Below, piece after piece: positions 7,725-56,349 of a stretch of 64,000 bases of DNA (position 1 is its first letter; every line of letters begins with the position of its first letter). The notes beneath the pieces were generated by a model. That model ran no database searches, was not told the DNA's origin, and worked only from the letters and a program-made list of their open reading frames with translations. This DNA comes from a virus. Position numbers and translations under genes: made by a program. The DNA lies in the IMG/VR virus record IMGVR_UViG_3300032073_000011, positions 38,193 through 102,192 of that record; one strand, written 5' to 3'.

Positions 7725-10700
7725 TTAATATCCACCACCACCACTAGACATACCCCCACCGGTTGACCTACCTCCCGAGGAGTTAGATATTCTACTTGTG
7801 TTTATACTACTACCTATTCCTCGCCTACCAGTTTGTATATTATCAGTAGGGGTTAGAGTGTAGTTTTCTAACCAACTTAGGTCATCAAAACCTAATTCTT
7901 TTAAACCTTTTATACACAATAAATTATCTGTACTTCCTTTTTTTGTAAAGACTGCCTTAGATGTAAATTTTGTTCTGTTAGTCTGAAAACTATTTGCTAA
8001 TTTATTGGTTTCTTTACTAAGTAATGGACTACCTATAAATCTACCTTGATTATTTATATTATAAGAAGTAGCGTAACTAGAAAGTGGTATGGTACTTGAG
8101 CCTGAAAATAAATTGTCATAATAAGTTGTACCAGATTGTGGTGGTGTGGGCATGGACATCATTCTAGCTGAATTACTAAATAAAGGCCATGGATAACCAG
8201 TGTATCCACTTGCGGAAGTGGTAAATGTCATTGAGTACACACTCTGCAGTGGGTCACCACTTACAGTAAAACATTTATAAACAAACTTATCTCTATGGAA
8301 TGCAGAATTTTCTACCTTAACACCACTTGTCCAAAGTGTTGTTGTGGGAAGCATCTGCTCAACAATTTTTATCCAATAATCACCTAAAGCTTGTGTATAA
8401 TCAATCATTTTTTGATAGGTGTATTGATTATTTTCACCACAATTTTTGTTTAAATATTCTAAATAAATTTGTTGTAGTGTTGGGTACCCACCTGTCTTAC
8501 CATCATTTATTGTCATTCTATTTTTGGCGTCTATAAAAACTTTCCAAAAATGATTTTTAAATGTTTTAAAATCTAAGGTTTTTGCATTTATCTTTGGATT
8601 TGTAGAGTCCCAAACACCACCTGGTCTAGGGTATGGTGAAGGTAGTGTACCACCACTAAAGAAACAATCCGACTTAACCGATTGTTGCCACACATCGTAA
8701 GTTAAACCTTGGCCTATATTAAGGGATAAATCAACATTTTTTACATTTAATACTAGTTTTTCACTTTGTGTTTGGTAATACGCGTCTCTATTATTGAAAG
8801 AGTAGTCTCTGTACTGTGTTCCTTCTTGTAGTACCCAAGATTTTTTATCATCATTAATTCTGGTAAGTCCAAACCCAAATGACATGTGTGGAAACCTCCT
8901 AAATCTATCTAGATAAGGTGCTTTTACTAAATTAGAATATTGACCCATCGTCCAAAAACCACCCCATGTAAATTCTGCGTATTTAGTAACAGTATTAGGT
9001 GTACACCCAGTTAGGGTAGAAGCACTTAAATTTAAAACTAAGTCTGATTTATGTTCTTCAGTCATTTCAAACCAACCAGCTCCTCTTTGGAAAAAGTAAC
9101 TTTCGGTAAATCTAGGTTTTGTGGGGTATCCCTGTGTGTCTATAGGATAGTCTGATAATACAAATGGATTAAAGGTTGTACCTGTAGAAATATAATATTG
9201 GTTAAATGGTATACTATAATTTAGTGTTTCTGTAGTATAGGACCCACCAGATATTTTTTCCCATTGGTAGTCGAATTTATTTTGTATTTTTTGGTATGAT
9301 GCAACTTCTCCAGCTGCTCCTTTAGACCATTCGAATCTCATACCTGGATTCATATTTATAGGAGCTCCAGCTATCACCACATATTCATTAAACTCAACCA
9401 AAGCTTCTGGTGCACCTAACAAAGTGAGTAAAAATTCTATAGATTTTCTAGTTCCTTTTGATTTAAATAGATAGGCTGTATTAAGTAATATTCTTCTATA
9501 TAATTCAATATCTAATTCTGCTGGTGTTTGTGAAACACTGGTACCGGAGTATTCGGGTGTATTAACACCTAAAACACTATCTAAAAATGTTGTGTTATCT
9601 AAAGTACTTGGTGTAGACCAACCTAAAGTTTTTGCGAAATTTTTTATTAACTCATTAGGTATATTATTTTTACCGTCGTAACTTACATTTGTCATATAAG
9701 CTATCCCATCTACAAATGTTTTTATATTATCAAAACTCCTACCATAAATCTGTAAAGTTTTTTCTATATATTGGTTTGTACCGTCGAATTCTTTTAATTG
9801 TGGTGAAGTTAAAAATCTAGAAACTAGATTGGTTTTTTCTCTATCGATTTCATCACCTAAGTCCGCTAATTTTATTAAATAATTAGTATATCTATCACTA
9901 TCGATGTCTATATTTACATTATCTTCTAAAGGCCAAGTTTGTTTTACTTTATCATAATATTTTACACCACTAGTTGTTTCTTTTACTACTTGGAATATTG
10001 AGGTATATATTGGTGTGATATCTCTATTAACTAAAAACTTTTCCACATTACCTAGATTTTTAAACTCTTCTTCTGTTTGGTTTTGTGTTGGTCTTATGTA
10101 GAATGTTTCTATTGTTGAGGTTACTATTGTTCCACCAGTCAATGGTAAATTAAATGGGTTACCTTTTACAGTAAATTCTATGTAGTCGGTCGTTGTTGTT
10201 TGTGGTTTAAATTCTTTAATTCTGTATTCTTTTTCACCAATCTGACCACTAAAACTTAAAGCGTATTTTTTAAAATGTTGTGTAATATTTCTAATTGGTG
10301 AGACTGTCCCATCAGCAATCTTTAGTAGGGTATCAGCGGAAACCCCAAAAGTGTTAAAATTATTTAATATTTGTTCTTTACTTATAGCACCGGTTAATAA
10401 ATCTCCATTTGTGGTAAATTCTAAACTAAATGGGTTGGATAGGGTGTTTACGTTGGTTTTAAATGTGGTTTCTTCAGTACTTAAACTATATAAAATATCA
10501 TAAGCTGTAGTATTACCTGAAACAAGGTTAATGTTAACCCCATCCACAAATAAGGCTGCGGGAAAAAAATTAACTACGTTTTGTGTGGCTACAGCTAGAC
10601 GTTTTTTTAATGACCCATATAAAACAAAACTAGATATTTCACTCATATCATTATTAACAAAAACTTCTAAACTATTACTTGTTAGTTTTTGAGCGAGAGC

Positions 10701-10916
10701 TAAACTTTCATTACTTAAAGACTCTAGGGTTATTGGTGTTGAGAATGTCCCTAAATTATATTCTGGTGTGTTGGGTTGGTTGTATGAAGGTTGTGTGTAA
10801 AAATTACCTAGGGTCATTTGCTGTGAACCCATAAATTGATTTCCAACAAGAAAATCACTAAAGGTATCCCCTCCGTTATTAGGGGCCGGTGGATATCTAA
10901 ATCGATTACTAGCCAT
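7725..10916 (-). CDS. Probable baseplate wedge protein, P2 gpI / tail protein I-like (1063 aa)
   Basis: Residues about 480-520 contain YLFKSKGTRKSIEFLLTLLG followed by APEALVEF. This is the hallmark of the P2 gpI/tail protein I segment (a GT-x-x-A/S-I-E-x-x-L-x-x-L-G helix), which in contractile tails bridges the gp6/J wedge to fibres. The T4 equivalent is part of gp7. The rest is much longer than P2 gpI (about 180 residues), so the domain is embedded in a large virion protein. The protein ends in a Gly/Ser-rich tail with SSGGGGY. It is 5 bases after the 306-residue gene. The gpI assignment rests on that motif and on the gp25 and gp6 genes further upstream; the other domains are unassigned. 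Confidence 0.55.
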   Translation of the reverse strand: MASNRFRYPPAPNNGGDTFSDFLVGNQFMGSQQMTLGNFYTQPSYNQPNTPEYNLGTFSTPITLESLSNESLALAQKLTSNSLEVFVNNDMSEISSFVLYGSLKKRLAVATQNVVNFFPAALFVDGVNINLVSGNTTAYDILYSLSTEETTFKTNVNTLSNPFSLEFTTNGDLLTGAISKEQILNNFNTFGVSADTLLKIADGTVSPIRNITQHFKKYALSFSGQIGEKEYRIKEFKPQTTTTDYIEFTVKGNPFNLPLTGGTIVTSTIETFYIRPTQNQTEEEFKNLGNVEKFLVNRDITPIYTSIFQVVKETTSGVKYYDKVKQTWPLEDNVNIDIDSDRYTNYLIKLADLGDEIDREKTNLVSRFLTSPQLKEFDGTNQYIEKTLQIYGRSFDNIKTFVDGIAYMTNVSYDGKNNIPNELIKNFAKTLGWSTPSTLDNTTFLDSVLGVNTPEYSGTSVSQTPAELDIELYRRILLNTAYLFKSKGTRKSIEFLLTLLGAPEALVEFNEYVVIAGAPINMNPGMRFEWSKGAAGEVASYQKIQNKFDYQWEKISGGSYTTETLNYSIPFNQYYISTGTTFNPFVLSDYPIDTQGYPTKPRFTESYFFQRGAGWFEMTEEHKSDLVLNLSASTLTGCTPNTVTKYAEFTWGGFWTMGQYSNLVKAPYLDRFRRFPHMSFGFGLTRINDDKKSWVLQEGTQYRDYSFNNRDAYYQTQSEKLVLNVKNVDLSLNIGQGLTYDVWQQSVKSDCFFSGGTLPSPYPRPGGVWDSTNPKINAKTLDFKTFKNHFWKVFIDAKNRMTINDGKTGGYPTLQQIYLEYLNKNCGENNQYTYQKMIDYTQALGDYWIKIVEQMLPTTTLWTSGVKVENSAFHRDKFVYKCFTVSGDPLQSVYSMTFTTSASGYTGYPWPLFSNSARMMSMPTPPQSGTTYYDNLFSGSSTIPLSSYATSYNINNQGRFIGSPLLSKETNKLANSFQTNRTKFTSKAVFTKKGSTDNLLCIKGLKELGFDDLSWLENYTLTPTDNIQTGRRGIGSSINTSRISNSSGGRSTGGGMSSGGGGY

Positions 10917-10921
10917 AATTA

Positions 10922-11842
10922 CTAAAAGTTAGTTATTGTACCAAACGCTTGACTAAAATCAATATTGTTCCCTCTATTTTCTTTTACTTCGTATAATTGT
11001 CCGTTAAATTGGTCTCTTACTTCATATAAATCATATTGCATATATATGTTGTTGGTACCAGATAAATCGTAAAGTGTGTAAATTCCATTATCGATAGATT
11101 TGGCTTGATTTCCATATAATGCGATAGCAAGTGTATCGAAATCATGGTCTACCATTTCTATGTCGAGTACAGTGGGATTAAAGTAAGTGTTAGTGATTAT
11201 GACTGATTGTCCGGGTTGTCCTATAAATGGTATAGCATTTGGATTATTAGATGGTGCACTTGTCGGTGTTAAGGTACAGTAAACCAAATTAGTTTTTGCA
11301 TTTGTATATACATATCTAGGTGAGGTTTGATTCGGGTTTGTATTATTTTGTTCTACTGTTGTACAATAAAAATTAGAAGTGACTATTCTATAAAAATTAT
11401 TAATTTTTGCTCCACTATCAGCGTCTAAATATTCTATTCTATAACCTACTAAATCCATAGGTGAAAATCTATTTCTAAATTGTGCGGGTATAGTGTTTAA
11501 ATCGAACACCAAACCTTTTACGTTTGGTAGTGATGATAATATACCACAATCTAATATTGTGGTTCTAATTTCTATAGGTCTTATGTAAACAGTATATATC
11601 CCTTTATTAGAAAATACGGCTGAAGGTAATTTTAAATCGTAAAGACCGCCTAGTACCTCTCCTACTGGACCACCTGTTTGTAAACCATTATGTACTATTG
11701 GTGTTAGTACGGTTGCAGCATTTATTTCGAAAACAGAAACAGCTGAACTTGCGTCTCGGTCTGCCTGTTGGTGTACTATTATTTGTACATCCTCAACTTT
11801 TACGTCTGCTGGTCTTTTAATTCCGTATGCTCCTAATGCCAT
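10922..11842 (-). CDS. Unknown tail-operon protein (306 aa)
   Basis: Not recognised. The first 20 residues include KRPADVKVEDVQIIVHQQAD, then strand-rich sequence with repeated YTVYIRPIEI- and GIYTLYDL-type strands suggesting a beta-sandwich. A run TIPAQFRNRFSPMDLVGYRI lies near residue 120. It has no signal peptide or membrane segment and few cysteines, unlike its large neighbours. Start and stop are within 5 bases of flanking genes on both sides (11846 upstream, 10916 downstream), so it is co-transcribed with them. A connector or baseplate-accessory role is a guess from position. Confidence 0.55.
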   Translation of the reverse strand: MALGAYGIKRPADVKVEDVQIIVHQQADRDASSAVSVFEINAATVLTPIVHNGLQTGGPVGEVLGGLYDLKLPSAVFSNKGIYTVYIRPIEIRTTILDCGILSSLPNVKGLVFDLNTIPAQFRNRFSPMDLVGYRIEYLDADSGAKINNFYRIVTSNFYCTTVEQNNTNPNQTSPRYVYTNAKTNLVYCTLTPTSAPSNNPNAIPFIGQPGQSVIITNTYFNPTVLDIEMVDHDFDTLAIALYGNQAKSIDNGIYTLYDLSGTNNIYMQYDLYEVRDQFNGQLYEVKENRGNNIDFSQAFGTITNF

Positions 11843-11845
11843 ATT

Positions 11846-12067
11846 CTATGGTTGTTTTTCTACTTTATAGTAACCGTATCCGTGTAATTCTAAATCACCT
11901 ATACTATTTATTTGACCTAGTCTTTGTGGTTTTTCAAATACAGTTATTTTACCCCTTTCAATAAATATATTTGACCTTACTTCTGGTCTTTGGCAAACAT
12001 TCATGAGTACCTCTAATTTTGTTAGTGGTAAAATACATCCTGTTACTTTTACTTCGCTTAATGCCAT
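11846..12067 (-). CDS. Small unknown protein (73 aa)
   Basis: Short conserved-looking ORF starting MALSEVKVTGCILPLTKLEV. It is mixed alpha/beta, with a mid-region SNIFIERGKITVFEKPQRLG that looks like a strand-turn-strand. No family is recognised. A late-type motif (12074-12088) lies 6 bases upstream of the ATG, so it probably opens the transcript that continues through the 306-residue and larger tail genes. Three bases separate its stop from the next ATG. The tight spacing and the clear promoter-like motif are the main evidence that it is a real gene. Confidence 0.6.
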   Translation of the reverse strand: MALSEVKVTGCILPLTKLEVLMNVCQRPEVRSNIFIERGKITVFEKPQRLGQINSIGDLELHGYGYYKVEKQP

Positions 12068-12096: not shown

Positions 12097-12729
12097 TTAT
12101 TTCCCTACTAATTCTGTTGCTGGAAAATATTTTTTGTAGTCTCTTAGGTAAATTTCGTCGTCGTATTTAAATCCGTTATTTATTCTCTGTATTTGTTTTA
12201 CCGATGGAAATTGTAATTTTGTAACCCAGAGACCTTCAATAACCTCTTCTTCTATATTCCAATTAGAAACTATCATATTATTTCTTTTAACATGGGGTGC
12301 GTAAGCTAGACCTACTTTTTCAAAGCTGTAAGGTTCACAATCTTTTATACCCCCCCTATAACAAATTTTATTTAATTCTACATTTTCTCTATTTTGGTAG
12401 TATACATCCATATAAAAATCACATTCTTCTAGTGCTACCCTAGATAAATCTATCAAAGTATCTCTAATTAATTCTAATTTATTATTACCGTCATCTATTA
12501 AAATAATATCTATATCCCAGCTATTCCAATTTATGTTACCATTAATATAATTAGGAAAAGAACCTGTCAACAACACATCAAATTGGTTAAAATAAGATTT
12601 TTTTTCTACAATATTTAACCACTTTTCAAATCTTCTAAGTGTGGGTCGGTAGATTTTTTTACTAACTGATATGGGGCCTACTTCAAAGTTAAAAAATCTA
12701 CCAAATTCTATTTCTCTTCTTATACTCAT
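12097..12729 (-). CDS. Nucleotidyltransferase-fold protein (210 aa)
   Basis: This looks like a minimal nucleotidyltransferase of the Pol-beta/MNT superfamily. Residues 56-57 are the Gly-Ser of a LLTGSFPNYINGN turn, followed by WDIDIIL with Asp72 and Asp74 as the DxD metal pair. CDFYMDVYY offers Asp104 or Asp108 as the third carboxylate. In the family these residues bind Mg2+ and NTP and transfer a nucleotidyl group to a protein, RNA or small molecule; the substrate here is unknown. The C-terminal half (KRNNMIVSNW, LQFPSVKQIQRINNG) is not recognised. It sits between the 2918-residue structural gene (1-base gap) and the 73-residue gene, an odd place for an enzyme. Modification of a virion or host protein is a possible role, not shown. 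Confidence 0.6.
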   Translation of the reverse strand: MSIRREIEFGRFFNFEVGPISVSKKIYRPTLRRFEKWLNIVEKKSYFNQFDVLLTGSFPNYINGNINWNSWDIDIILIDDGNNKLELIRDTLIDLSRVALEECDFYMDVYYQNRENVELNKICYRGGIKDCEPYSFEKVGLAYAPHVKRNNMIVSNWNIEEEVIEGLWVTKLQFPSVKQIQRINNGFKYDDEIYLRDYKKYFPATELVGK

Positions 12730-12730: not shown

Positions 12731-15700
12731 TTAGGTTGGCATACACTGACATCTATCCCAATCCCATTGATATCCCTCCGGACAACTTTCAGTTTGTATA
12801 CAAGGTTCTTCGGTCACCCAATCATCCTCGATAGGTCCTCCAGGTCCAATAACTATTGGTACACAACTACAGTCTGATTGAGACCAAACTTGTCCAATAG
12901 GGCACGCCCAAGTTGGTGGTACACAACAGTCACTAGTTGGTTTTGTTACCCACCCTATACCTAACCAAAACTCACAATCACATGGGTTGTATGTGGTAGG
13001 CAGTGTTTGATAAATCCAAGTACCATCTTTTTTAAGTTTTCCACAACATTCGTTACATGGGGTTACTGGTGGTGGACATGGTGAATTTTGACATGCTTGT
13101 AGACTAGTATATGGACCACCTGGTACTGGTACACACTCGTGATTACTTGGGTCGAATATTGTTGGTCGGTGTAGACAATCATAGTAAATACTCCCTGAAA
13201 CTCCACTACATGGAAAGGACCCTGAAGGTGTACAACTAACCCAACCATAAATATTTCCATCAGTAAAAGGAACAATAACACCAGCACCGTAATATTCCCA
13301 ATTTCCATCTTGGTTTGTATCATACACAGCACACGGAGATGAATTAGAAAAACCAGGACCTCTAACGGGGTCATCATGGTCAACCCATCCAGAACCAAAA
13401 TCATTAGGGTCTACATTAGGTGACATCATACAACAATAACAACAACCGTCATTTGGGTCTACGACACATTGGTTCTGGTAAAAGTGTTGGTATGCTGGTG
13501 TTTTCCACTGTAAAGGTAGTGTTGCTCCCCAATTAGTAGACATGTAGGTATCACAATTATTACAATCTACCGCACCAGTACTATTATCACATGGAGAACC
13601 ATCTGTTGTAACCTTACAATCCATCCACATCGCACCACCACCTATATTTACACCTACATTTAATGATGGTTGATATCCGGATTTACAAATTACTTTAGTT
13701 GGTGATGGACCTGAGCCTCCTGGACCTGAGCCTCCTGGACCTGAGCCTCCTGGCCCAGCGGGACTTATAGTTCCATCATTCCTTTTAATCTTTGAATGAG
13801 GGTCATCGTCGTCATGTGGGTCGTCTGGCCCAAATGGGTATGGAACACAACAATAACAACAACCATCATCTGGGTCTGTCACACAATCATTCTCTACGTA
13901 GGCTGGGTTAAATGTAGAATACCATATACCTTCATAATCTATAGGTCCTGTTAAGTAACCAGATAGGGTTTGTGCACAATCTTCACAACCTTGTTTACAA
14001 TTTGCTATACATAATGATAAAGCATTTGGTCCTTGATATTGAGCTGTACCAGTATTATTTTGAATACAGTTACAACTTCCTGGACAATTAACACAATCGT
14101 AACCTATATCCGGTGGTGTTGTTGAACATTTTGGGTCACATGGCCACCATATTGGTCCTCTATTTTGAATATTTATTTCCGGAGTTACTGGTGTTGGGTC
14201 TTGTGTCCCATTATAATATTTCCCCAGTAAGTGATTCTGGTAGATTTGACTAGGTGAATAACTCATAATATCACTACCAGTAAAATGACAATTATCACAA
14301 ACTAAGACATAACAACAATCATCATATGGGTCTTTAACTATATCAAATGGAGTATATATAGTTCCTGATAACCAAAGACCTGCAATATTTGATGATGCTA
14401 GTGGAAGAGTTTGTGTGAAACCTATACTATAGGTACCGTTATGGTGAACGTAAGTTGGTGATATAAACGAAGATGGTGGACATTCTGTTGAACAGTCAGT
14501 TGATTGATTTTCACAACAGTTTGATACTGGTATTCCGTTTTGGCAATCACTAAGGGTAGCGTAGGTCCCAAATCCTGATACGTTAACTACACATTTACAT
14601 AAACCGTTATTACCGGGAACACAATCATATCTACCGGTATGACCAGTATAACAACAATCATTAACTTGAGCTTCACAATCTGCTTGAGTAGGCCAAACAC
14701 CACTTGCTGTTTGTACACATTTACAACCACCTGCTTTTGGACCAAAATCAACACATTCCCAATCTTTTGTTACTCCCGTATAACAACAATTATTATTAAT
14801 TGCTGTTTGACAATCATGTAACGTTGAGTATGGTCCGGTAGGGTCTATGACACAAGAACAATCTTTAGTACATCTCCACATATCTGGCATTGTTCTTCCT
14901 GAACAACATGTTGTTGGGTCATTTTCACAATCAAATAAAGCGTTTGGTCCGGTATAACTTCCCATCCCTGCGGGTACAACGACACATTCACATTTAAAAT
15001 TATTTGCACCTACAGGTCCTATAATTGGAATTTTTCTACACTCGTACTCATCATACCTTATTGTACAACAGTTATTAGAGTTATAACATTCTGTTTGAGA
15101 ACTAAATCCTGTTATGTCATTTGGTATAAACGTACAGTCACATATTTTTGGGTCACATTTCCAACTACCACAACAAGGGTCGTAATTTAGAGTAGTTTGA
15201 CAACCTGATAAACTATTAAAAGCTCCTGTTGGACCATTAACTTGTACACAGACACAAGGAGTTTGTGTACATCTACATGGGGTCATTTGTATGTCCATAC
15301 ATTTATCTCTAAGATATGAACCCCAAATTGCATTTATCCCTAAACACACATCATCCCAACTACTTGATAAGCTCAATATTGTACCACTTGGTGATGTTAC
15401 TCCCGCACCAGCTAAACTAGTAATCATAGAACTCCATGTGTTGTAACTTCCAGGTATCCCTATCATAACGCCCACATTTGGGTGTATTACAATTGGTCCG
15501 TTTACCTGATATAGTGGTGCTGCATTAGGAGTACCTGCAGCATATGTACATGGGTTACTAAATATAGGTCCAGGTCCATAATAAGGGAATTTTATAGTCA
15601 TGACATCGGTTGTTTGTAAATAAGGTACACCTGCTGGTGCTCCTATTACTTCCAATAAATCATACTGATTTAATGTTGCTGTAGGAGGAACCACTAAATT

Positions 15701-18700
15701 ACGGTTAGAACAACTATCCGTAATGGTTCCTGGTATACAATCATAAGTCTGTTGCATAACACCCGGTACACAATCAGGGTCACATGGTATCCACTGTAAA
15801 CTTAATGTTCCACCTCCTGGCCAAACTGGGTTACTTGTATTTAAATCGTTAATATATGCTTGGTAGTAAAAATAAGGTGGTACTGTCCAATCTTGAGATG
15901 TATCCCAAACATTCACATAACAACAAGATGTATTATCAAAACTAAATGTAACAACATCTCCTATGTTATATACTTGTCCTGATACCCAAGGTAAAGCACC
16001 TGTACTCATATTAACTGGTGTTGAGCCTAACACCCAAGACATAGTTCCAGTATCATACATTTGATATGTTATAGGACTATTTGTTGTACAGTGATAACAT
16101 CTACAACAAGAACCATCAGCACCAAATAAAGTTAGTGATTGAACATAAGTTTCACAATCTAACATATTTGTAAATGGATATGGTGAACATGAAGGGGATA
16201 CCGGACCATTTACGAATTGACAATGACAATCTCCTGCTGGAGGAACACAGTCACCACAAACAAAATTACACTCATCAGTACAAGCTGCGGCGTTTGTTCC
16301 AAAGAAAGTAACACATGGATTTCCATCACTACCCATTGGTGGAGTTCCTATATATGATAAACAACCATCAACTGCATGACAACAATATTCAGTTTGTGGT
16401 TCCCTACAAGTTCTATCACCTGTAACTGTTAATTGTTGTTGAGCACAATCTCCTGGTGAGGTAGAACTTGGTAGTCCTGTACCACAAGATGCTGTACCAC
16501 CACTACAAGTCATATCACCCCATGCACAAGCTACAACTGTTGGGTCACCGCACAAATCACAAACACCGGTACCTGGAGGTGCACAATCACAACAGAATCT
16601 ACATCTTTCTTCACACTGTGCTTGAGTAGGGAATCCCATTCCCGTAGGTACGTTACCTAGTGTTACCGCAAAAAAGTAATTATTATTTGGGTCCGAAGGT
16701 CCACCTGCGGCTTGTCCTATCGCTTGTGATTGGTATGCACTACCTTGACCTACAAAGTAGGAGCTTGGTTGACATGGTTGTGAACCTGGGGTGTCATACA
16801 ATCCTGCGTCCGCACCAGCCCAATCACACCACCATTCTTCTGATAAGTTTTGACATAAACAATTAGTATTTGCCAGTTCACAAGCTGTAGCTGAAGGATA
16901 TGTAACTGAAGCTAACGACATTGGTATAAATTGGCAAGTTTGTGCTCCTTGGGAATTACACTCCCAAGTACACCATTCTTGACATCCTGATAAACTAGTA
17001 AAAGTTCCTCCACTACCCATTACTGGGTAACAACCTACACCACCCACACAAGGATTACCCGCCACTGTAGGACAGTTACAACTACTGTCACATTCCCAGG
17101 TCATAATACTTGTATTTCCCGTACAACAAAATGCAAATCCAGGGTCTATCTGTGATTGACATAGGTCTAGAGACCCATAAGGCCAGGTAGTCAAAACACC
17201 GGTCATTTGAAAAACAATCCCGGGTTGAACTGGTGGCCATGTAAATGGAAATGGTGAATAACCATTAAAATGAATACCTAAGTTACCTGTCCCTGGTGAA
17301 TATATATCATTTAAATAATCTTGCATAACTACACAATTAGAAACATCTACTGGTTCTAATCCTGCTGGTGGTCCTGGGTCTGCACAATAACAGTCTGCTG
17401 TACATTGGTCGATACCCATTCCAATTAATGGTGTACTACAAGTTCCACCCGTATAACAGTTATTTTGTGTTGCCCATATCGAAACGTTTACACCTGGAGG
17501 TGGGTCAAATATACCACCCACACCACTAGCTGTAGAAGAAGGCAGTGACCCACAACCTGAAGTGCAACCACTAGGGGTACACCACATTGTAGCGGCAGAA
17601 CTAGGTCCATCACAAGGACCACAAGGGTCACCTATAGTTGGTACTGGAGTTGCTGGGTCATAAGCTGGTAGTCTTTCACATGTTTGCCAACAATTTGGTG
17701 GTCCGTTTACTGTATATGGTCCATCATCTGGGGGACTAGAATCACAATCATAACCTGTACCAGTTATATCTGGTGGACACATACACATGAAACAACATTC
17801 AGGTGTATTTCCGTCACTATAACTTACAGTCTCAAACATATTATAAGTGTTAGTGTTAGACCATGGCCCTGACCAAGTAAATGCACTAGTAATTGGTATT
17901 CCGTTTACAGTTAACCAATCTTCACATGCACAATTACAAGTTTCTTCTACAGGTGCACAACAAGTCATACCTGTTGTGTTTAGTGGGTCTGGGTCCGGAC
18001 ATAATGCGTTAACACAATCTATCATGTCACAGTAAGGTAATCCTGGATTGTCATCAAAACACTGTACAATACCAGTTAATCCATTCATTGAATTTACATA
18101 AGCTGGAGAACAACAATTAACATTTGTTGGGCCAACCTGTAGGTCTAAGTTAGTTTGTGAAATCCAATAACATGGTAGTTGTCCTCCACCACCACCTTGT
18201 AGTGCTGGACCTGTAGTTGTGTAAGCTGACCAACCATTTAGTCCTGCTTGAATTGGGTCATCTTCACATACTGCTCTACAACATTCTGTTGCGTTACAAC
18301 ATTCTTCAAAAGAGGTATACCCCGTAGGGTTACCAAATGGGTCTGTCGGGGAACCTGGGGACCAAGTAACTCCAAGTTGTATCATAACATACTCACTTGC
18401 GTAGTATGTACATCCACCTACTTGTTGTCCTATTTGTGCAGGGGGATTTGTATCGTCATATACAAAACAATCAAAACCACCAGGACAAGTACACCCTGTT
18501 TGACATTGTGGTAAATCTGGGAATGTTGGTGGACTACCGAATGGGTTTGGTGGCCAATAAGGACAGGACGCTGCGTTAGTAATTGGGTCTTGGTATATGG
18601 TACATGGTGTAGGATTTGTACAATCACAAACATAACATACGGTAGAACAGGAACAGTTCATTTCACAATCAATGTGCCCCTGTAAATCATATGCGTAACC

Positions 18701-21487
18701 ACAATTTAAAGTAGAACAAGTTGTACAAGGGTCACACATAGGGTCACATACCCATCCACAAGGGGTGTTACCTATACCTAACCATTGTGGGTTAGCGGCA
18801 TAACAAGATGCTTCATCGGTATACCCAGTACCCACATATACCGGTTTACAACCTTCTTCACAATTATAAATCCACCTAGTATAATCACAACAACCCGTGT
18901 AAGTTCCGGCTGAATTCGTAAATCCACCATTACAATCACTTATATCGTAAGGGTCAAAAAATAATTCAAAATTAAATGCCGCGTAGTCTACAAAATTTAA
19001 AAATGGTGCTGGTGTAGGTGGTAAAGTACTCATTACTGGTAATACACTATCAACATAAAATGAGGTTCCGTTTAAAAGGTCCTCATCACATGAAAGTAAT
19101 TGACAACAATTCCCTCCAGCTGCTGGTGAACTAGTAGTACATGAAAAAGCTGGGGGATTACACCAATTATTACAGTCAATTTCACTATCAAAAACTGGTC
19201 CTTGATTAGGGTCTAACCCACTTGGGTCATTATATAAAGGGTGTGCTGAAGTAATTTCTATACAATTACCACAAGAATATTGGTCTTCACAAACATACCT
19301 ATCTTCACAACAATTACCTAAGTAAAAAGTATCCATACAATCTTCAAAAGCTGTAAATCCGACACTTGTACAAGGACCTGTATTTGTTGACCCCGTACCT
19401 GGTACTAATTGACATGAAAGACTAGATGCTGTTAAAGCTGATACTGGTGGACATACCCAACTAGAACATCCAATATAATCCCAATATTGATTATTGGTTA
19501 GGCCGGATGGTGGTGGTAACGTACCACCTGATAAAGCTCTATAACAATTACCCCATTGACCTAAAGTAAATTGTCCTGTTGAGTACACATTACCATTACT
19601 GTATACTCCCGCTGGACCCACAGGTGATATGGTAGGATACGCATTCCATGTGTTAGTTGGGTCATAACAAGGTATAGCTGTAAAGTCTGGGCATGATTCA
19701 CACTCTGGAGTACAAGCCTCCCAAATATGTTCTGTTGGTTGTCCGTTATTCCACCAAACTCCTTGTACTAAATCAGTTGGTTTAATTCCAGCCCAAGGGT
19801 CTATAGTTCCACCACTCTGATTAATATCTGTTACTGCCATATAACAACAACACTCCCCCCAAGTAGAGTCAAATACTATATCTCCTTTAACATAGTTTGT
19901 CGTTGCCGACCATTCACCCCAATTAGTGTTAATCATTGGGTCGAAACTTATAGGTTCTGGTAGTGTGGTTATTCTATCAATATATTCGTCTTTTGTTTCA
20001 CAGTAAGTACAATCTTCTATTGCACATTTTACACAATCAAAAGCACCGAAAGCAAAAGCATCCATACCACAACTTGTAGCTTCATATAAAGTAACACCAT
20101 TACTAAAGTCATAAAAAGTTATTGGTGTATTTGTACCAATACTAATAGTATAAGCAGTATATTGTGTGTTTTCTACTGTAATTCTACCCATAACCCCTTG
20201 TTCTATAAGGTTGGTTATTGGATTTATTACTTCACCCATAATCGGTACATCAACATTTATTTGGTATCCCGGTGGTAAATTACCAGTTTGTAGTGATGTG
20301 TATGTTTGAAACGCACCTAGTAAACTTTGTGTGTTACCTGTAACCTCAAAACAATTACTATTATTACCACCACCAAATATAGGTGACATACCACTATATT
20401 GTAATATATCGGTACCAGAATCTAAAGGTGAAAAAGGATAGGCACCAAAATATGTATTAGTACCTGTAGGTCCAGTAGGTCCAACTACTGGAGCGTTACT
20501 AGGAGCTATACCTGTATTAAGAACTGAATTGTAAGGTTGAGCTTGTAATGTATTATAAGGCATGAATGGAACTGTTATAACTTGAGAAACTGAAGTTGGT
20601 CCCCATTCATTTTGATGAGTTATGGTAATCCTTCTTTGTCCTACACCAGCATAAGTATGTGGTGTTGGGTTTGTAAGATTTGGAAATTGTAGGGTTTCAC
20701 AACAAGGGTCACCAAATGAATTTGTACAAGGTGGTGTCACACAATCACAAGGACAGTCACCCCACTCTATAGTATATGGTGAATTTTGGTAGGTTTTGTA
20801 ATAACCAAAATCCGTAGTATTATATATTTGTATTTGGTTACCCATCGCGGTGGTTGCGGTAACAATAAAATTAGAAAAAATATCTTTTTGACCTAGATTT
20901 CCATCCCAAATATCATAATGCCCTATATCATTAAAATCTTGTTCTAGGAAAATAGGTATTTGATGTAAGTCATTAAATACTGGTGGTGGACAAAAACAAG
21001 ATACTGTGTTTGGTGTTAAGTGTGCACTAGTTTGGGTGTTTAGTGGTTGTGATAAAGTAGAATTTGTTAAAGAAAAAATACTTATTAAATCATCATAACT
21101 TTCACCAGTAAATGTCATTACCCCAGATTGGTATAAATTTAACCCAGCAAATATAACATAAGGATGGGATTCTACATCCAAACAAAATGGTTGATTCATA
21201 GTTGGTGCATTACCGTATGGTGGTGGTGCACCCATTACTGGCATCGTAGTTGTATCATTTAATAGGATACATGGGTTTGTTGACGAACATCCAGTTAGTT
21301 CGGTAGGAAAATTATTCATGTCACCCTGTAAAGCGTTCTGTACTTGACTAAATGTAGAGTTGTACATTGTTAATCCTGAACAGTTAGGGCTTGTATTGAT
21401 AGGGTAGAAATTAGTTCCACCGGTACAAGGTACTGTAAAATAAACACTAGGGTTACTTCTTTTTATTCTATATTTGTATACTTCCAT
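12731..21487 (-). CDS. Giant cysteine-rich repeat protein, probable fibre/adsorption protein (2918 aa)
   Basis: Very long virion-type protein with cysteines throughout. Two kinds of unit recur. Unit A is about 35-50 residues: [WY]xC, a CxC pair, a G-x-[YF]-x-[ST]-L turn, then C-Q and a closing CC or C. Examples are WKCDPKICDCTFIPND, STLHDCQTAINNNCC and YATLSDCQNG; there is a dense run at about residues 2055-2335 and scattered copies elsewhere. Unit B is about 60-90 residues, with W..Y..GD.V followed by CCY and a closing W: NYVKGDIVFD near 527, QVYNIGDVVTF near 1835, TIYTPFDIVKD near 2375. It resembles carbohydrate-binding modules of the CBM5/12 type with added cysteines. A GPGGS-type linker lies at about 2579-2594. 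The N-terminal 400 residues lack this pattern. It starts 4 bases after the 316-residue gene. Glycan binding at the host surface is inferred. Confidence 0.65.
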   Translation of the reverse strand: MEVYKYRIKRSNPSVYFTVPCTGGTNFYPINTSPNCSGLTMYNSTFSQVQNALQGDMNNFPTELTGCSSTNPCILLNDTTTMPVMGAPPPYGNAPTMNQPFCLDVESHPYVIFAGLNLYQSGVMTFTGESYDDLISIFSLTNSTLSQPLNTQTSAHLTPNTVSCFCPPPVFNDLHQIPIFLEQDFNDIGHYDIWDGNLGQKDIFSNFIVTATTAMGNQIQIYNTTDFGYYKTYQNSPYTIEWGDCPCDCVTPPCTNSFGDPCCETLQFPNLTNPTPHTYAGVGQRRITITHQNEWGPTSVSQVITVPFMPYNTLQAQPYNSVLNTGIAPSNAPVVGPTGPTGTNTYFGAYPFSPLDSGTDILQYSGMSPIFGGGNNSNCFEVTGNTQSLLGAFQTYTSLQTGNLPPGYQINVDVPIMGEVINPITNLIEQGVMGRITVENTQYTAYTISIGTNTPITFYDFSNGVTLYEATSCGMDAFAFGAFDCVKCAIEDCTYCETKDEYIDRITTLPEPISFDPMINTNWGEWSATTNYVKGDIVFDSTWGECCCYMAVTDINQSGGTIDPWAGIKPTDLVQGVWWNNGQPTEHIWEACTPECESCPDFTAIPCYDPTNTWNAYPTISPVGPAGVYSNGNVYSTGQFTLGQWGNCYRALSGGTLPPPSGLTNNQYWDYIGCSSWVCPPVSALTASSLSCQLVPGTGSTNTGPCTSVGFTAFEDCMDTFYLGNCCEDRYVCEDQYSCGNCIEITSAHPLYNDPSGLDPNQGPVFDSEIDCNNWCNPPAFSCTTSSPAAGGNCCQLLSCDEDLLNGTSFYVDSVLPVMSTLPPTPAPFLNFVDYAAFNFELFFDPYDISDCNGGFTNSAGTYTGCCDYTRWIYNCEEGCKPVYVGTGYTDEASCYAANPQWLGIGNTPCGWVCDPMCDPCTTCSTLNCGYAYDLQGHIDCEMNCSCSTVCYVCDCTNPTPCTIYQDPITNAASCPYWPPNPFGSPPTFPDLPQCQTGCTCPGGFDCFVYDDTNPPAQIGQQVGGCTYYASEYVMIQLGVTWSPGSPTDPFGNPTGYTSFEECCNATECCRAVCEDDPIQAGLNGWSAYTTTGPALQGGGGGQLPCYWISQTNLDLQVGPTNVNCCSPAYVNSMNGLTGIVQCFDDNPGLPYCDMIDCVNALCPDPDPLNTTGMTCCAPVEETCNCACEDWLTVNGIPITSAFTWSGPWSNTNTYNMFETVSYSDGNTPECCFMCMCPPDITGTGYDCDSSPPDDGPYTVNGPPNCWQTCERLPAYDPATPVPTIGDPCGPCDGPSSAATMWCTPSGCTSGCGSLPSSTASGVGGIFDPPPGVNVSIWATQNNCYTGGTCSTPLIGMGIDQCTADCYCADPGPPAGLEPVDVSNCVVMQDYLNDIYSPGTGNLGIHFNGYSPFPFTWPPVQPGIVFQMTGVLTTWPYGSLDLCQSQIDPGFAFCCTGNTSIMTWECDSSCNCPTVAGNPCVGGVGCYPVMGSGGTFTSLSGCQEWCTWECNSQGAQTCQFIPMSLASVTYPSATACELANTNCLCQNLSEEWWCDWAGADAGLYDTPGSQPCQPSSYFVGQGSAYQSQAIGQAAGGPSDPNNNYFFAVTLGNVPTGMGFPTQAQCEERCRFCCDCAPPGTGVCDLCGDPTVVACAWGDMTCSGGTASCGTGLPSSTSPGDCAQQQLTVTGDRTCREPQTEYCCHAVDGCLSYIGTPPMGSDGNPCVTFFGTNAAACTDECNFVCGDCVPPAGDCHCQFVNGPVSPSCSPYPFTNMLDCETYVQSLTLFGADGSCCRCYHCTTNSPITYQMYDTGTMSWVLGSTPVNMSTGALPWVSGQVYNIGDVVTFSFDNTSCCYVNVWDTSQDWTVPPYFYYQAYINDLNTSNPVWPGGGTLSLQWIPCDPDCVPGVMQQTYDCIPGTITDSCSNRNLVVPPTATLNQYDLLEVIGAPAGVPYLQTTDVMTIKFPYYGPGPIFSNPCTYAAGTPNAAPLYQVNGPIVIHPNVGVMIGIPGSYNTWSSMITSLAGAGVTSPSGTILSLSSSWDDVCLGINAIWGSYLRDKCMDIQMTPCRCTQTPCVCVQVNGPTGAFNSLSGCQTTLNYDPCCGSWKCDPKICDCTFIPNDITGFSSQTECYNSNNCCTIRYDEYECRKIPIIGPVGANNFKCECVVVPAGMGSYTGPNALFDCENDPTTCCSGRTMPDMWRCTKDCSCVIDPTGPYSTLHDCQTAINNNCCYTGVTKDWECVDFGPKAGGCKCVQTASGVWPTQADCEAQVNDCCYTGHTGRYDCVPGNNGLCKCVVNVSGFGTYATLSDCQNGIPVSNCCENQSTDCSTECPPSSFISPTYVHHNGTYSIGFTQTLPLASSNIAGLWLSGTIYTPFDIVKDPYDDCCYVLVCDNCHFTGSDIMSYSPSQIYQNHLLGKYYNGTQDPTPVTPEINIQNRGPIWWPCDPKCSTTPPDIGYDCVNCPGSCNCIQNNTGTAQYQGPNALSLCIANCKQGCEDCAQTLSGYLTGPIDYEGIWYSTFNPAYVENDCVTDPDDGCCYCCVPYPFGPDDPHDDDDPHSKIKRNDGTISPAGPGGSGPGGSGPGGSGPSPTKVICKSGYQPSLNVGVNIGGGAMWMDCKVTTDGSPCDNSTGAVDCNNCDTYMSTNWGATLPLQWKTPAYQHFYQNQCVVDPNDGCCYCCMMSPNVDPNDFGSGWVDHDDPVRGPGFSNSSPCAVYDTNQDGNWEYYGAGVIVPFTDGNIYGWVSCTPSGSFPCSGVSGSIYYDCLHRPTIFDPSNHECVPVPGGPYTSLQACQNSPCPPPVTPCNECCGKLKKDGTWIYQTLPTTYNPCDCEFWLGIGWVTKPTSDCCVPPTWACPIGQVWSQSDCSCVPIVIGPGGPIEDDWVTEEPCIQTESCPEGYQWDWDRCQCMPT
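13707..13751. repeat. Three tandem 15-bp repeats in the giant gene
   Basis: The plus strand reads GGACCTGAGCCTCCT three times without a mismatch, encoding Gly/Pro/Ser units of a flexible linker. It keeps frame. The surrounding GPG-type codons suggest expansion by slippage between two cysteine-rich modules. Confidence 0.9.
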
Positions 21488-21490: not shown

Positions 21491-22441
21491 TTAAGGGTTT
21501 ACGTATTCATAAAATCTTATTGGTACAGCGTTAGGTACTTGTAGGGTACCAGGAACTGCATCTGCGGGTGTACCACCTGGTAAACCAGTTCCAGCAGGTC
21601 CACCACCACCTAAAGCCATGATTGCTTCATTAAATTGTGTAACAACATATCTAAATTTAGGGTCTATTGTAGATGCGTTACTGGGGTTTATAAATAATTT
21701 AACTTTATAATAAAACCATTCTGGATAACTTAACACCTCCCCATTGGTTATTTCACTAAGGGTTGGTGGCTTGTTTATCATATTAGTTACTTTTCCATTT
21801 TTTGCGTTAAAAAATTTACATGACATATAAAACTCATCAATTTCTGTAAGTTCTCTATCTTTTAACCATTGTATATAATAATTTTCACTTCTGCCGTGTA
21901 GTGGTCCTAAGACACAAACAGGCACATACACACCATACTTAGGGTTAGTAATGTTATTAGCTATTTGTGAATAGTACTCTGTGGGGTCCTCTAGTGGTAG
22001 TATCTCTGTCATTTCTTTCATACAATTATTTAAAGGCATAACGTTGGTGAACATTATTTTTTGTTCCTTTCTTAGGGGAGAATCGTAGAAATCAAATTTA
22101 AAAAAACTTCTTGTAAAAGCTTTTTTAGGTTTATGTAAATCTTTATCTTGGAAACCTAGAACATTAAAATTATCAACATACTGTAAAGTGTTAGGGTCCC
22201 AAAATTCAAAAGCGTAAGATATTGTGTTTGAGCCTCCACTAAATGTATTATTAACAGTGTTTCTATAAGCGTACCTGGTAGTTTCATAATCTTGTATTAC
22301 ATTTATATTATCTTGTAATTCAACCTCTTCCCACGTCCTAACTAATTGTTCATTACCTATTTCGTCAAATGTCTGCCCTATGGGTATAGTTATAGACTTA
22401 TCTTTCGTTGAAGCTTTTATATTTACTCTATTGACAGCCAT
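21491..22441 (-). CDS. Unknown structural protein (316 aa)
   Basis: Not recognised as a family. It begins MAVNRVNIKASTKDKSITIP and continues with a polar alpha/beta sequence including TFDEIGNEQLVRTWEEVELQ and a FDFYDSPLRKEQKIMF segment. A Gly/Pro-rich stretch (GGGGPAGTGLPGGTPA) near residue 278 looks like a flexible linker before a short C-terminal strand. Its start overlaps the end of the 596-residue gene by 14 bases, which indicates translational coupling. It is followed after 3 bases by the giant cysteine-rich gene. A linker or baseplate-peripheral role between the wedge proteins and the fibre is inferred from order alone. Confidence 0.55.
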   Translation of the reverse strand: MAVNRVNIKASTKDKSITIPIGQTFDEIGNEQLVRTWEEVELQDNINVIQDYETTRYAYRNTVNNTFSGGSNTISYAFEFWDPNTLQYVDNFNVLGFQDKDLHKPKKAFTRSFFKFDFYDSPLRKEQKIMFTNVMPLNNCMKEMTEILPLEDPTEYYSQIANNITNPKYGVYVPVCVLGPLHGRSENYYIQWLKDRELTEIDEFYMSCKFFNAKNGKVTNMINKPPTLSEITNGEVLSYPEWFYYKVKLFINPSNASTIDPKFRYVVTQFNEAIMALGGGGPAGTGLPGGTPADAVPGTLQVPNAVPIRFYEYVNP

Positions 22442-24218
22442 CAGTGTATTCGGTTAATATAGTTATTGTTGCTGAGGTTAGTGGGATTAATGCTGGCCCC
22501 ACCGCCTCTATTTTAAATTCTAAATTATGGTAAGGGTAGTGAGCATCATTTAAATAGGGGTAACTAACACCATTATCCCCATCTTCATAAGCTTCTACCG
22601 GTAAAATTTCTCTCCACCTAAATGTTTCCTCTGATAAAGAATAAACAGCATACTGGGGTGATGTAAACAGACTATCATTATAACTTACATAATTAGAGAA
22701 TTTTTTTACAGGTATCTTGTGGTGTGGATGGTATTTAAAGATAGAATCTACAAAATCATATCCTGGTGTACCACCAACTTTATACATCGCATCTCTATTA
22801 AATTTTAAGGAATGTCCTATTTCTGAAATTACTCTTTCTTTTAACTCAAAAGGGTTATATTCAGCAAAAGCACCTCTAAGTGTACTTCCACTTAATGGTA
22901 ATGGATTTACCCCTAAATTACCGTTTTGAGTTACATTTATGGGGTGAATTGTGTTATCCACAAAAGGGTCTACCACCCCATTTTTTTTAAAGTTCCACCC
23001 CCAACCATATCCAGCTGGACTAGAATTACCACCAGGATTCCAATCCCAAACTAAATTTCTATTTGTAGTAAAAATTGTTAAATAAAATTCTGTTAAAGGC
23101 CTATTAAATTGGTCGTAATAATCATCACTATTAATATTATAATTACAATTCCATAAAAATGAATCGTATTCTTGGATTAAAACCGACTTTTGTTTATAGT
23201 TTGGTGTTCTTTTTGCTGGAAATATTCTTCCTCTTTTATTGTATATCCCTCTTTCAAAACCTGTTTTATCTAAAGTTAAATCATTAGGGTTTGTTATTAA
23301 TTTATGTATTTGACAATAGTATTCAGATTTTGTCTCTAGCATATTTTCTGGGTTAGTGACTCTTTTTAAAGTACCTACTGGTTCTGTTGGTATTGAGGTA
23401 GCGTCTAACCCTAATGTGGTAATATTCATAACATAATCTTCAGAATTTTCTAATCCATTACCCAAATAATCTACTTTAAATATAGTTTGAGGCCCACTTA
23501 CCGGTGCAAATACAGTAGTAATTGCTACATCAACTAGTAGATTAGCGTTACCAAAAGTAGTTGCCCCAGATTGTATTTCTATATATTCTCCTGGTGATAC
23601 ACCATGTCTTACCGGTGTTATTATTTGTAACACTTCTTTACCATCAGTATTGGTCACTCTGGGGGTAAAAGGGATACCATCTCCAGCTACAAACTGCATA
23701 CCAGAAGGTGTGGTGTAGTCTGTATAGTATTCCATTGTTTGTTCTGGGTCTGCATCATGTACATAAGAAATATATCGCACCCAATTATCTTGGTGTGCTA
23801 ATATTGGTTCCCAACCTGCTTGACTAGGGTCAATACCATATCTTTTAGGTGGTATCATGGTAAAAGTACTAGATGGTGGTAAACCGGAACAACTAGTAGG
23901 TGGTACTCCACCTAAAAGATGGGGGCACCCTATATAATCTGGAATAAAATACATTGAGTCCATAAAATAAGCATCTTGTGTGCTACCACTAATAATATTG
24001 TTGTAAAGTATATCTATTTTCCCATATAACCTATATTGGGTTGAGTATTCTCTTTCAAAGTCAAATTGGTCTCTTAGGTCTAAAACTAGGTTTCTGTCAC
24101 CTTCATGTATTTGTTTTTGTGTGGATTCTAAAAACGGTTGTAATTGCAATTCTCTGTTAGGTGAACCAGCAAATTTAGATTCTCCTCTTACAATCCTTAT
24201 GTTTTTTTCGTTACTCAT
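22428..24218 (-). CDS. Unknown structural protein (596 aa)
   Basis: Starts MSNEKNIRIVRGESKFAGSP and has a long, aromatic-rich alpha/beta sequence with no enzyme motif that could be recognised. Several segments, such as HDADPEQTMEYYTDYTTP and NITTLGLDATSIPTEPVGTL, look like surface loops of a beta-rich virion protein. The ATG shares its first base with the stop of the 1221-residue gene (a TAATG junction) and the 3' end overlaps the 316-residue gene by 14 bases, so the three genes are translationally coupled. This points to subunits made in fixed proportion for one assembly. Baseplate or fibre-attachment is the most economical guess. Confidence 0.55.
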   Translation of the reverse strand: MSNEKNIRIVRGESKFAGSPNRELQLQPFLESTQKQIHEGDRNLVLDLRDQFDFEREYSTQYRLYGKIDILYNNIISGSTQDAYFMDSMYFIPDYIGCPHLLGGVPPTSCSGLPPSSTFTMIPPKRYGIDPSQAGWEPILAHQDNWVRYISYVHDADPEQTMEYYTDYTTPSGMQFVAGDGIPFTPRVTNTDGKEVLQIITPVRHGVSPGEYIEIQSGATTFGNANLLVDVAITTVFAPVSGPQTIFKVDYLGNGLENSEDYVMNITTLGLDATSIPTEPVGTLKRVTNPENMLETKSEYYCQIHKLITNPNDLTLDKTGFERGIYNKRGRIFPAKRTPNYKQKSVLIQEYDSFLWNCNYNINSDDYYDQFNRPLTEFYLTIFTTNRNLVWDWNPGGNSSPAGYGWGWNFKKNGVVDPFVDNTIHPINVTQNGNLGVNPLPLSGSTLRGAFAEYNPFELKERVISEIGHSLKFNRDAMYKVGGTPGYDFVDSIFKYHPHHKIPVKKFSNYVSYNDSLFTSPQYAVYSLSEETFRWREILPVEAYEDGDNGVSYPYLNDAHYPYHNLEFKIEAVGPALIPLTSATITILTEYTDGCQ

Positions 24219-27200
24219 TATATTACTGTATCTGATAATTCTTCATCTATATATTTCCTAACAAAAGTATTGAATGCTGTACCTCCAGGTCTTAAACCAA
24301 AATAATAAAATAATGGTTGTGAAAACACATAAGAATCACTACCTGGAATTGTACCATTAGTTACTGGGTAGTTGTTATTCGCAAATGAAAATGGTGGATT
24401 ACCCATATAGTGTTGGAAATTACCACTACTTAGATATTGTGTACCCCCGGAAAGACCTGGTACGGCATTTGTGGGGTGTATTGTTGAACCTTCTGCATCA
24501 ACAGAAGAAATTGCTGGTAAAATTGACATTGCTGGTCCAGGTACACCGAACGCATATCTATATTCTCCTAGAGTACCTAACCAGTCATTCCAAACAGTAC
24601 CGTACCCACCAATTGGGACACCCCCAAGTGTACCACTCGCATTATGTAAATGCCATGGATAAAATGGTACAGTCTGACTAGATGCTGACAACTCCATAGT
24701 GACACAATCTATTAAATCCTGACCATCCATAATAACTGATGTAGAACCTGTAAATAATAATGGTTCCCACAAAAGATTATGTCTAAAGTTATTTGAATTA
24801 TTTATATCGTTTACATTAAGAGCATTGGGTACGTAAGTTCCTCCCACAAAATTTGGTGATGGGTAAGTTAGTCCACTTGGTGGTAGTGAGTCTGTTGGTG
24901 ATGTGGAAAATCCTGGACCGTTACCAACTGGGAATTGACACTCACAAGCTGTATTACCATTATTTGCCTCATATCCTGCAACACCTAACATACAATTTTG
25001 CATAAGTGCTTGTGCTACATCACCACCAATTTCATATTCAGGACGAGGAAAGAACGTAGACATAGATGCCTTTGGATTTTGCATCTTAAGATTATAGGTA
25101 TCAGAAACTAGTTCTGTTATGTCTTGGAATGTTGTACTACCTATCTGGTCAGTCACAGAACATTCGTTAGCGTATTTAGGGTCTAAACATATTTGTTGTA
25201 TACATTGGTTTCTAGACCCCATATCTACCATTGTTGTTGGAAAAAGAATATGTCTGTCTTGGTCACCCTTAGCGTGGTTACTACCACTACTACCCGCAAA
25301 AGCCCACCAAGGATTATATACACCATCAGTATCACCAATAAAACTTCCTTCTAGTGGTTGGATACCGTTAACTTTAAATGGTGTGGACCTATAGTAAAAA
25401 GTATGTTCTGTTGGGTGTAGGTAGGTTAATTTTTTACACCACTGGGAATTGGTGACGTAGGTATCATTGGCGGTATCATATTCTACCTTAGCTCTAAATT
25501 GGAATTGGTATAAGAATCCACTTACCCAACTATTTTCCCAAAAATAATTCATAATACCATTACATAATGCCTGTGATACTTTTTCTCTTCTGGTCCATTC
25601 TAATAAAACTCTAAGATTATAGTTCTCAGCGACACAGTCTATATTAAAACATATTATTTTTACATAACAACCACCACCTGCTATACCATCCGTCGGGTCA
25701 TTACTTGTACTTGGGTCACCCGAAAAAGAAGAATTAAAACCATAATAGTCTGGGCAACATATTCTTGTCTCATCTGTTTGTGCACAACAATCATGTGACC
25801 ACTTGCCACCAAAATCATCACCTACAGCACCATTACCTGGTGGACATTGTGGTACACAAGTGGAACTTGCAGAGTATGTGGTACCCCCACTCATCCCCCA
25901 AGGTAGACCTCCTGGACATGGCCATTTAGAAGCTAAATATATAAGAGAGTCTGACTTACTCATATCCCCCATAGTTCTACACATACATTTTTCACATTCT
26001 GGATACTTGGTTTGTCTTAAAGTAAATAATACGAACCCCATTCTTAACCCAAAATATTTACAGTCAGCACCACAACCAAAACAATCAGAACCCCCGAGAC
26101 AAATTTGACCACATTCTTCTGGTGGGGGGGACATAAAACTAGACATTCTTAATATTGTAAAACCCCATAGTGTTATATGGATACAGTATATCGCACACCA
26201 CATCCAACATATTAACCACACGACAAACAATACAACTGCTAGTACTAAACTAAGAAGTGCGGCTATTGTAGTAACGAGTAATGTTAAAAACATGTAAATC
26301 ATCCCTAAGAAATCTATAAGGAACATCCAAAGAAATACCATTAAACTAGGAGCTCTTACAGCACTATTAATTGGAAAAAACATTGCAGTGGTCGCACATT
26401 GTTGGTCTGATTCTGGTAATATATTTTTTATCCCCACAAATTGTCTTCTACCACCATGTTTTATGTGGTCATGAAATTGTGAGAATGTGTACACCCTATT
26501 AAATGTCATATCATAAAAAACATCTTTTGCTCCAGGCATTAAATTTCTTTGTGCCCAAGGATTGTAGTCACTATAATTTACAGAAAAAGTATAAGTACTA
26601 GGGTCTATCCCTGGCCAATCACCATTACTATCACCAGCCCAAGGGTCATAAAATTCTCTAATATTAGGCACCAAATAACTAGCTATCCTTCTCTCTCTAG
26701 CTCCTCCAGTTGCCTGTTCTGGTCTAATCCTAAACCTACATCTTGTTCTAGTTGGTACGCCCACACTTGGGTCGTCAGATATAACCATTTCTCCAAATTC
26801 ATTGGTAATCATATAATCTAGATTCATCGGAATATGTACTAGAAAGGAACCGGAATCATCAATAACCCTACCTCCATTTGGTAGGTAGTATCTTTCTAGT
26901 ATGGGTACTTCTCCACCTAGTGGTGCCCCCCAACCTCCAGCGGTATATGCTGGGTAAGCATTTGGGTCATTTTGAAAAAATGGGGTATATCTTATACAGT
27001 CTATTATTCCTGGTCTTGAGATTAAACTACATAGTTCTCCCATAGCTGCTTTAGGTCTACAATTTCTATTAACAGAATCTTTATCGGTGTCAGATGCTGT
27101 ACTACCCATAAAAACAGCATTGGGTTCTAATTTAAACCCGGTAACACCTAAATCAAAATCTACTCTAGTAATTGCAGCTCTACAAAATTCTTCATCACCC

Positions 27201-29835: not shown

Positions 29836-29836
29836 C

Positions 29837-56332: not shown

Positions 56333-56349
56333 TGTTTTGTTATAAATAT
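56333..56349 (-). promoter_or_regulatory. Late-type motif before the EF-hand-like protein gene
   Basis: The coding strand reads ATATTTATAACAAAACA, 5 bases before the ATG at 56327, and overlaps the end of the sheath gene. It shares the AAAACAG ending with the tape-measure motif. Confidence 0.55.

Follow-up and report, generated by a model that had tools for sequence, protein, structure and literature searches.

In the tail of the Agrobacterium phage Milano, the sheath, the baseplate and the receptor-binding proteins are disulfide-linked in the virion, and cysteine makes up 2.1% of the structural proteins of this phage versus 0.9% of T4 proteins (PMC10811340). For cyanophage Pam3, the fibres are stated to be disulfide-linked to the baseplate (PMC10329688). 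The Tal protein of Oenococcus phage Vinitor162 is a very long tail-tip protein with several carbohydrate-binding modules in series (PMC8540738).

The locus described here lies in a window of 64,000 nucleotides, corresponding to bases 38193-102192 of a 102,192-base IMG/VR virus record, and encodes a giant cysteine-rich tail protein. As in Milano, a contractile tail is combined with an abundance of tail cysteines; however, whereas Milano averages 2.1% cysteine and has both interchain and intrachain bonds, here one chain reaches 8.4% and arranges its cysteines in serial small units, and our searches of protein families and phage collections gave no match that relates it to Milano. Vinitor162 Tal differs in belonging to a siphophage and in carrying other CBM classes, and the cited parts of its description mention no Cys-rich units. 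With T4-type baseplate and fibre genes, the giant gene shares an operon position beside the gp25 and gp6 wedge genes, but neither the giant protein (no family at E ≤ 1) nor the adjoining tail genes matched PHROGs, and no known fibre motif was seen; a trimerisation or known fibre-tip element was likewise not found.

The giant gene and its tail operon

The giant gene and the tail genes around it occupy the following positions in the window.

56349-59798, minus strand: tail sheath (phrog_23, E 1.6e-53)
27997-30304, minus strand: gp6-like and gp25-like baseplate wedge genes (PHROGs phrog_6, E 1.1e-18, and phrog_261, E 9.4e-18)
21491-27883, minus strand: conserved upstream tail genes, 316, 596 and 1221 aa (iterated HMMs, about 100 loci)
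12731-21487, minus strand: giant cysteine-rich tail protein, 2918 aa, 246 Cys (open reading frame and translation, orthologues, dN/dS)
12097-12729, minus strand: nucleotidyltransferase-like gene, 210 aa, between the giant gene and the detached domain (open reading frame and sequence)
11846-12067, minus strand: detached C-terminal domain gene, ~73 aa (...NIFIERGKITVFEKPQRLGQINSIGDLELHGYGYYKVEKQP; HMM of the compact-form C-terminus, E 7e-22)
7725-11842, minus strand: conserved downstream tail genes, 306 and 1063 aa (iterated HMMs, about 80 loci)

The minus-strand operon runs from the sheath, tube and wedge genes (45-60 kb) through the gp25-like and gp6-like genes to those for proteins of 1221, 596, 316 and 2918 aa, and continues after the 2918-aa gene with proteins of 210, ~73, 306, 1063, 1307 and 1185 aa. 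The tail sheath gene indicates a contractile tail, and genes for the tail tube and for a wedge protein of the baseplate also lie at 45-60 kb. The sequence-only reading had placed the giant gene in a tail operon, and the gp25, gp6, tube and sheath genes bear this out. The flanking tail genes are common to about 80-105 loci, and gp6 is distantly related to that of Flavobacterium phage immuto and Microcystis phage Mel-JY01 (27% identity). The 210-aa protein bears a nucleotidyltransferase-like GSFPNY...DIDIILID motif and found no match in Pfam or NCBIfam; in several other giants, the gap is too short to hold its gene.

More specifically, the giant protein is encoded by a single unbroken frame, in which the 246 cysteines represent 8.4% of the residues. 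The DNA is metagenomic, and such a gene might be suspected of being an assembly artefact or a pseudogene, an explanation so improbable here that we regard it as already refuted: a second IMG/VR contig (L002) carries the frame at 100% identity, divergent full-length homologues are many, including open frames of 2901-2990 aa in L003, L004, L006 and L031, and a dN/dS of ~0.22 relative to L003 (with dS high, at 0.94) indicates purifying selection. A search along all 2918 residues for a signal-like or hydrophobic segment found none, so that the protein is presumably synthesised in the cytoplasm.

Compared as a whole with Pfam, NCBIfam and PDB sequences, the giant protein gave nothing or sub-threshold matches. 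No convincing relative was found among 50,697 phage records (INPHARED), no homologue in bacterial genomes, and no relative on plasmids, which were searched with the compact form introduced below; nor did we find a published description of such a protein in the open-licence literature. The earlier statement that no phage fibre of this design has been described thus holds for INPHARED, PHROGs, NCBIfam and that literature.

Core, modules and six-cysteine units

From its N terminus onwards, the giant protein comprises the following parts.

20978-21487, minus strand: conserved N-terminal block MExYKYRI..., residues 1-170 (alignments)
20558-20872, minus strand: PKD-like domain, residues 206-310 (fold match; sub-cut-off Pfam matches in relatives)
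19988-20530, minus strand: conserved beta domain, residues 320-500, also in the compact form (giant and compact-form alignments)
19700-19918, minus strand: CBM5/12-like module 1, residues 524-596 (module HMM i-E 5e-13, in seed)
17675-17869, minus strand: weak CBM5/12-like module, residues 1207-1271 (module HMM i-E 0.11)
16859-16966, minus strand: four-Cys form of the unit, residues 1508-1543 (unit HMM i-E 2.6e-9)
15770-15991, minus strand: CBM5/12-like module 2, residues 1833-1906 (module HMM i-E 2.2e-13, in seed; Pfam CBM_5_12 E 0.016)
14513-15277, minus strand: six tandem six-Cys units, residues 2071-2325 (unit HMM; AF2 pair model)
14126-14380, minus strand: CBM5/12-like module 3, residues 2370-2454 (module HMM i-E 3.3e-14, in seed)
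13847-13945, minus strand: degenerate CBM5/12-like module, residues 2515-2547 (module HMM i-E 0.025)
13400-13546, minus strand: degenerate CBM5/12-like module, residues 2648-2696 (module HMM i-E 0.31)
12743-12904, minus strand: two four-Cys modules C..G..W....C.C, residues 2862-2915 (alignment and table of Cys gain and loss)

The sequence-only reading had the protein built from cysteine-rich repeats and CBM5/12-like modules. Profile searches found both, but they cover the chain only in part, and residues 1-500 form a conserved, non-repetitive core that includes the PKD-like domain. The model of this core has an overall pLDDT of 48.7 and is better in the PKD part, which alone was used; in this low-confidence model, the best fold matches of the PKD part are PKD domains (probability 1.00, TMt 0.70, E 8e-3). 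Three relatives, L014, L022 and L025, matched Pfam PKD_4/PKD below cut-off in the corresponding region (E 0.0017-0.066), and the window giant gave no Pfam PKD match at E ≤ 1. The domain may resemble PKD (PF00801, PF18911) in its fold, as far as the model predicts it, and has the motif WGD...H.Y...G.....T, but differs in the Cys-rich insertion that the giant form holds within it and in scoring under the Pfam cut-off.

The window giant carries three strong CBM5/12-like modules, which were in the seed of the module HMM, and three weak ones; module 1 directly follows the core in every giant and intermediate form inspected. Against Pfam CBM_5_12 (PF02839), the whole protein scored 15.7 bits, below the curated cut-off of 26.2. 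When the modules were scanned singly, 8 of 12 matched this family (best E 9.2e-5), and the module profile matched chitin-deacetylase CBMs in PDB (E 1.5e-4), which supports the modules as they had been named from the sequence. Module and family share the W..Y..GD.V core, of which W and Y are invariant and D is nearly invariant in our alignment, whereas the extra invariant CC and the terminal W..C...C set the modules described here apart.

The six-Cys unit has the consensus [WY]xC..CxC..Gx[YFW]x[ST]xxxC..CC, and more four- and six-Cys forms lie outside residues 2071-2325; the number of C-terminal C..G..W....C.C modules differs between orthologues. A profile from six hand-cut units gave 40-47 bits for each of them in the window, by construction since these are its seed, and the same profile recovered all six in L003, L004 and L006, which lie outside the seed. 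When iterated, it detected 143 units across 58 non-redundant homologues; shuffled copies yielded none, even those in which every Cys was kept fixed. The repeats are therefore detectable, as had been claimed. Tandem unit pairs, mostly 26-38% identical to the first, keep the pattern C..CxC..C..CC twice.

In an AF2 model of a unit pair (pLDDT 69.9), each unit consists of a beta hairpin and a helix. This model gave no fold match in PDB at E ≤ 0.001, the unit no match to PDB sequences, and a comparison of 29 units with Pfam no family above cut-off, which makes this a small, putatively Cys-stapled unit without a Pfam or PDB match. Among predicted structures, slice 3 of BFVD entry A0A516LFR9, a large viral protein, matches the unit pair (window 14504-14767; probability 1.00, E 1.2e-3, 26% identity); tblastn with unit arrays gave nothing convincing in phages. 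The GxYxSxxxCxxxC end of the unit looks similar to Kunitz domains; a Kunitz-like reading was dropped, as Pfam and PDB give it no support. Elsewhere in the operon, the end of the 1307-aa protein (3796-7719, minus strand) looks like two four-Cys units (YSCMDGRCFEDRSGIYRTLDDCVKSC; ICKAGTYWCEKRGCIPLKEEC), such that the unit may serve in more than one tail protein.

Compact, intermediate and giant forms

A profile of the N-terminal ~600 residues identified relatives of the core on more than 520 viral contigs, and yet INPHARED, PHROGs and NCBIfam gave no match. Among the best 80 loci, which were retained, the core-gene relatives sort into three forms. The compact form is a single gene of 362-432 aa with 0-1.2% Cys, in which the N-terminal block, the PKD-like domain, the beta domain and a conserved C-terminal domain of ~75 residues (...VYVERGKNSALEYIERLGEVDNVGDLEKYGYGFFNV) follow one another. 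We define a compact PKD tail protein family by this N block, PKD and beta domain together with the ERGK..LG....L..YGY C-terminal domain, all of which are present here; its members lie between tail genes of ~270-330 aa and ~305 aa, and in giants they are split over two genes.

In the intermediate form, an N-terminal gene of ~780-1260 aa (3-6% Cys) is followed by a second, repeat-bearing gene of 227-1086 aa that terminates in the compact-form C-terminal domain. The bodies of intermediates contain GCTDPxAxNYxP repeats, dockerin-like motifs (sub-threshold in Pfam) or four-Cys units. For example, GCTDPxAxNYxPxA Cys repeats precede the conserved C-terminal domain in L014 (12623-15823), L022 (11781-14027) and L025 (12952-13632), and dockerin/EF-hand-like repeats (DLNNDGIVNTADL...DFNRDGVVNVSDL), likewise sub-threshold in Pfam, lie in the N-terminal part of the core gene in L025 (10001-12958) and L027 (10001-12619). 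The giant form, at 2440-2990 aa and 7.4-8.7% Cys (roughly 200-250 cysteines), is followed by a separate frame of 73-81 residues that holds the C-terminal domain alone (E about 1e-18 to 1e-23 downstream of giants). The C-terminal domain is present in every locus whose contig extends past this point, and its location tracks the form. In intermediates and giants, the chain is interrupted after the beta domain, and Cys-rich and CBM5/12-like modules stand at this position, with the C-terminal domain on a separate downstream gene.

In a gp6 tree, which is independent of the giant gene, giants form one clade (100/97), which is sister (100/100) to a single clade of intermediates (98/91), and the compact forms fall outside both, with an outgroup that is distant and on long branches. 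Given these clades and the distribution of forms over them, the simplest reading makes the compact gene ancestral. On this tree, the giant form arose once, and, most simply, the Cys-rich body would have been inserted behind the beta domain and ahead of the C-terminal domain, accompanied by gene fission. Comparison of the compact single gene with the split giant likewise presents the giant as a compact tail protein split and extended. The family would then offer a traceable route, with extant intermediates, by which insertion and fission turned a tail protein of ~390 residues into a giant modular adhesin. The PKD-like core, the compact form of 362-432 aa, the detached C-terminal domain gene and the single origin of the giants all go beyond the sequence-only reading.

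Cysteine pairing and proposed function

Cysteines are the most conserved feature of the giant protein. Among four orthologues with identities of 56-72%, 236 of the 246 Cys are invariant (96%), versus 66% of Trp, 52% of Gly and 21-45% of most other residues. Across 19 non-redundant giants (median pairwise identity 38%), the invariant residues are 126 of 246 Cys, 8 of 68 Trp and 20 of 287 Gly; non-Cys conservation in these giants is ~0.5 near the N terminus and declines to 0.16 towards the C terminus, a fall that is expected of an exposed adhesin.

Units can also be compared by their cysteine complement. Of the 134 distinct units that could be scored, CxC and CC occur together in 62 and are both missing from 61, and 11 show just one of the two; 123 of 134 are therefore either CxC+CC or C+C, a pairing whose Fisher p value is inflated because the units are related and their independence is overstated. 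Several of the 11 exceptions show another extra Cys on inspection, so that an even count is retained. Likewise, orthologues differ mostly by twos or fours: C924 is present with C929 only in the window protein, L004 and L006 show eight differences, and the ends of L003 and L004 show four. Gain and loss in pairs favours disulfides over metal clusters as the putative state of these cysteines, so that, of the two options in the original description of the protein as disulfide- or metal-rich, the former fits better. As L004, L006 and L031 have odd Cys totals, full pairing within one chain is impossible there, and some cysteines may be free or intermolecular.

Bound metal is known in some phage tail spikes and fibres, and four-Cys versions of the unit exist, so a metal-stabilised tail component of that kind, with cysteines binding zinc or an iron-sulphur cluster, has to be weighed. 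We consider it unlikely, given that Cys gains come two at a time (C-x-C together with CC) rather than in fours, that the 26 His residues are few and little conserved (35% invariant in the four orthologues), and that no known zinc-binding Pfam family was detected in the whole protein or its units. Rather unlikely, too, is a structural baseplate collar or skirt without a receptor role, in which the extension would covalently cross-link neighbouring wedges and stabilise the particle as in Milano. The giant gene adjoins the wedge genes, odd Cys totals allow interchain bonds, and the neighbouring ~1220-aa tail protein gains Cys in step with the form (1.3% in compact, 2.4% in intermediate and 3.1% in giant); the CBM5/12-like modules nevertheless speak against a purely structural part, as does the C-terminal half, which changes fastest and varies in module number, as expected of an exposed host-facing part. 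We give still less weight to an adhesin for particles or matrix (chitin, algal polysaccharide or other) that would raise host encounter rather than serve as primary receptor binder, although the modules resemble CBM5/12 of chitin-active enzymes and phage adhesins for non-bacterial surfaces have been described (PMC13370021).

On balance, we lean towards the giant protein being an adhesin of the contractile tail that developed from a compact protein of the baseplate region. It is most likely a tail adhesin that would fold oxidatively after lysis, its binding, disulfides and virion location being putative, and it probably holds on to host cells through a predicted sugar-binding-like extension. 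In such an adhesin, the core and the detached C-terminal domain would still be seated in the baseplate region, with the Cys-rich extension projecting outward. The chain, which has no signal peptide, would be translated in the reducing cytoplasm and assembled unlocked; after lysis, its cysteines would pair as disulfides to give a stiff, protease-resistant rod of beta-hairpin/helix beads, along which the CBM5/12-like modules could touch glycans on the host or on particles where hosts live. Cytoplasm-assembled phage proteins are usually Cys-poor, and ~246 conserved Cys raise the question of when and how oxidation occurs, and whether lysis is the trigger. We propose more tentatively, as a possibility that we would not yet favour, that the protein represents a new adhesin class among phages: insertion would have opened up a baseplate protein, whose C-terminal domain became a gene of its own and whose body was rebuilt from a new six-Cys bead fold, which would be reduced and flexible during assembly and armed by oxidation after lysis. 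As a kind, the protein is a modular tail adhesin, and it is the six-Cys unit and the fission route that are new, as far as the libraries searched show.

The tail of Milano and the fibres of Pam3 are precedents for functional tail disulfides, and Vinitor162 Tal is one for long tail proteins with serial CBMs. Redox partners were sought in the phages themselves. A search for a dedicated thiol oxidase (Evr1/ALR) gave no match, with the positive controls silent too. A glutaredoxin-like gene is present (G000:C1:20855-20947); similar genes also occur in compact-form phages, so that glutaredoxin was uninformative as a specific partner of the Cys-rich forms and was set aside. Finally, the 1221-aa protein of the operon (24218-27883, minus strand) contains a continuous hydrophobic block of ~60 residues (~residues 511-572) flanked by conserved Cys, and is possibly a membrane-inserting tail protein.
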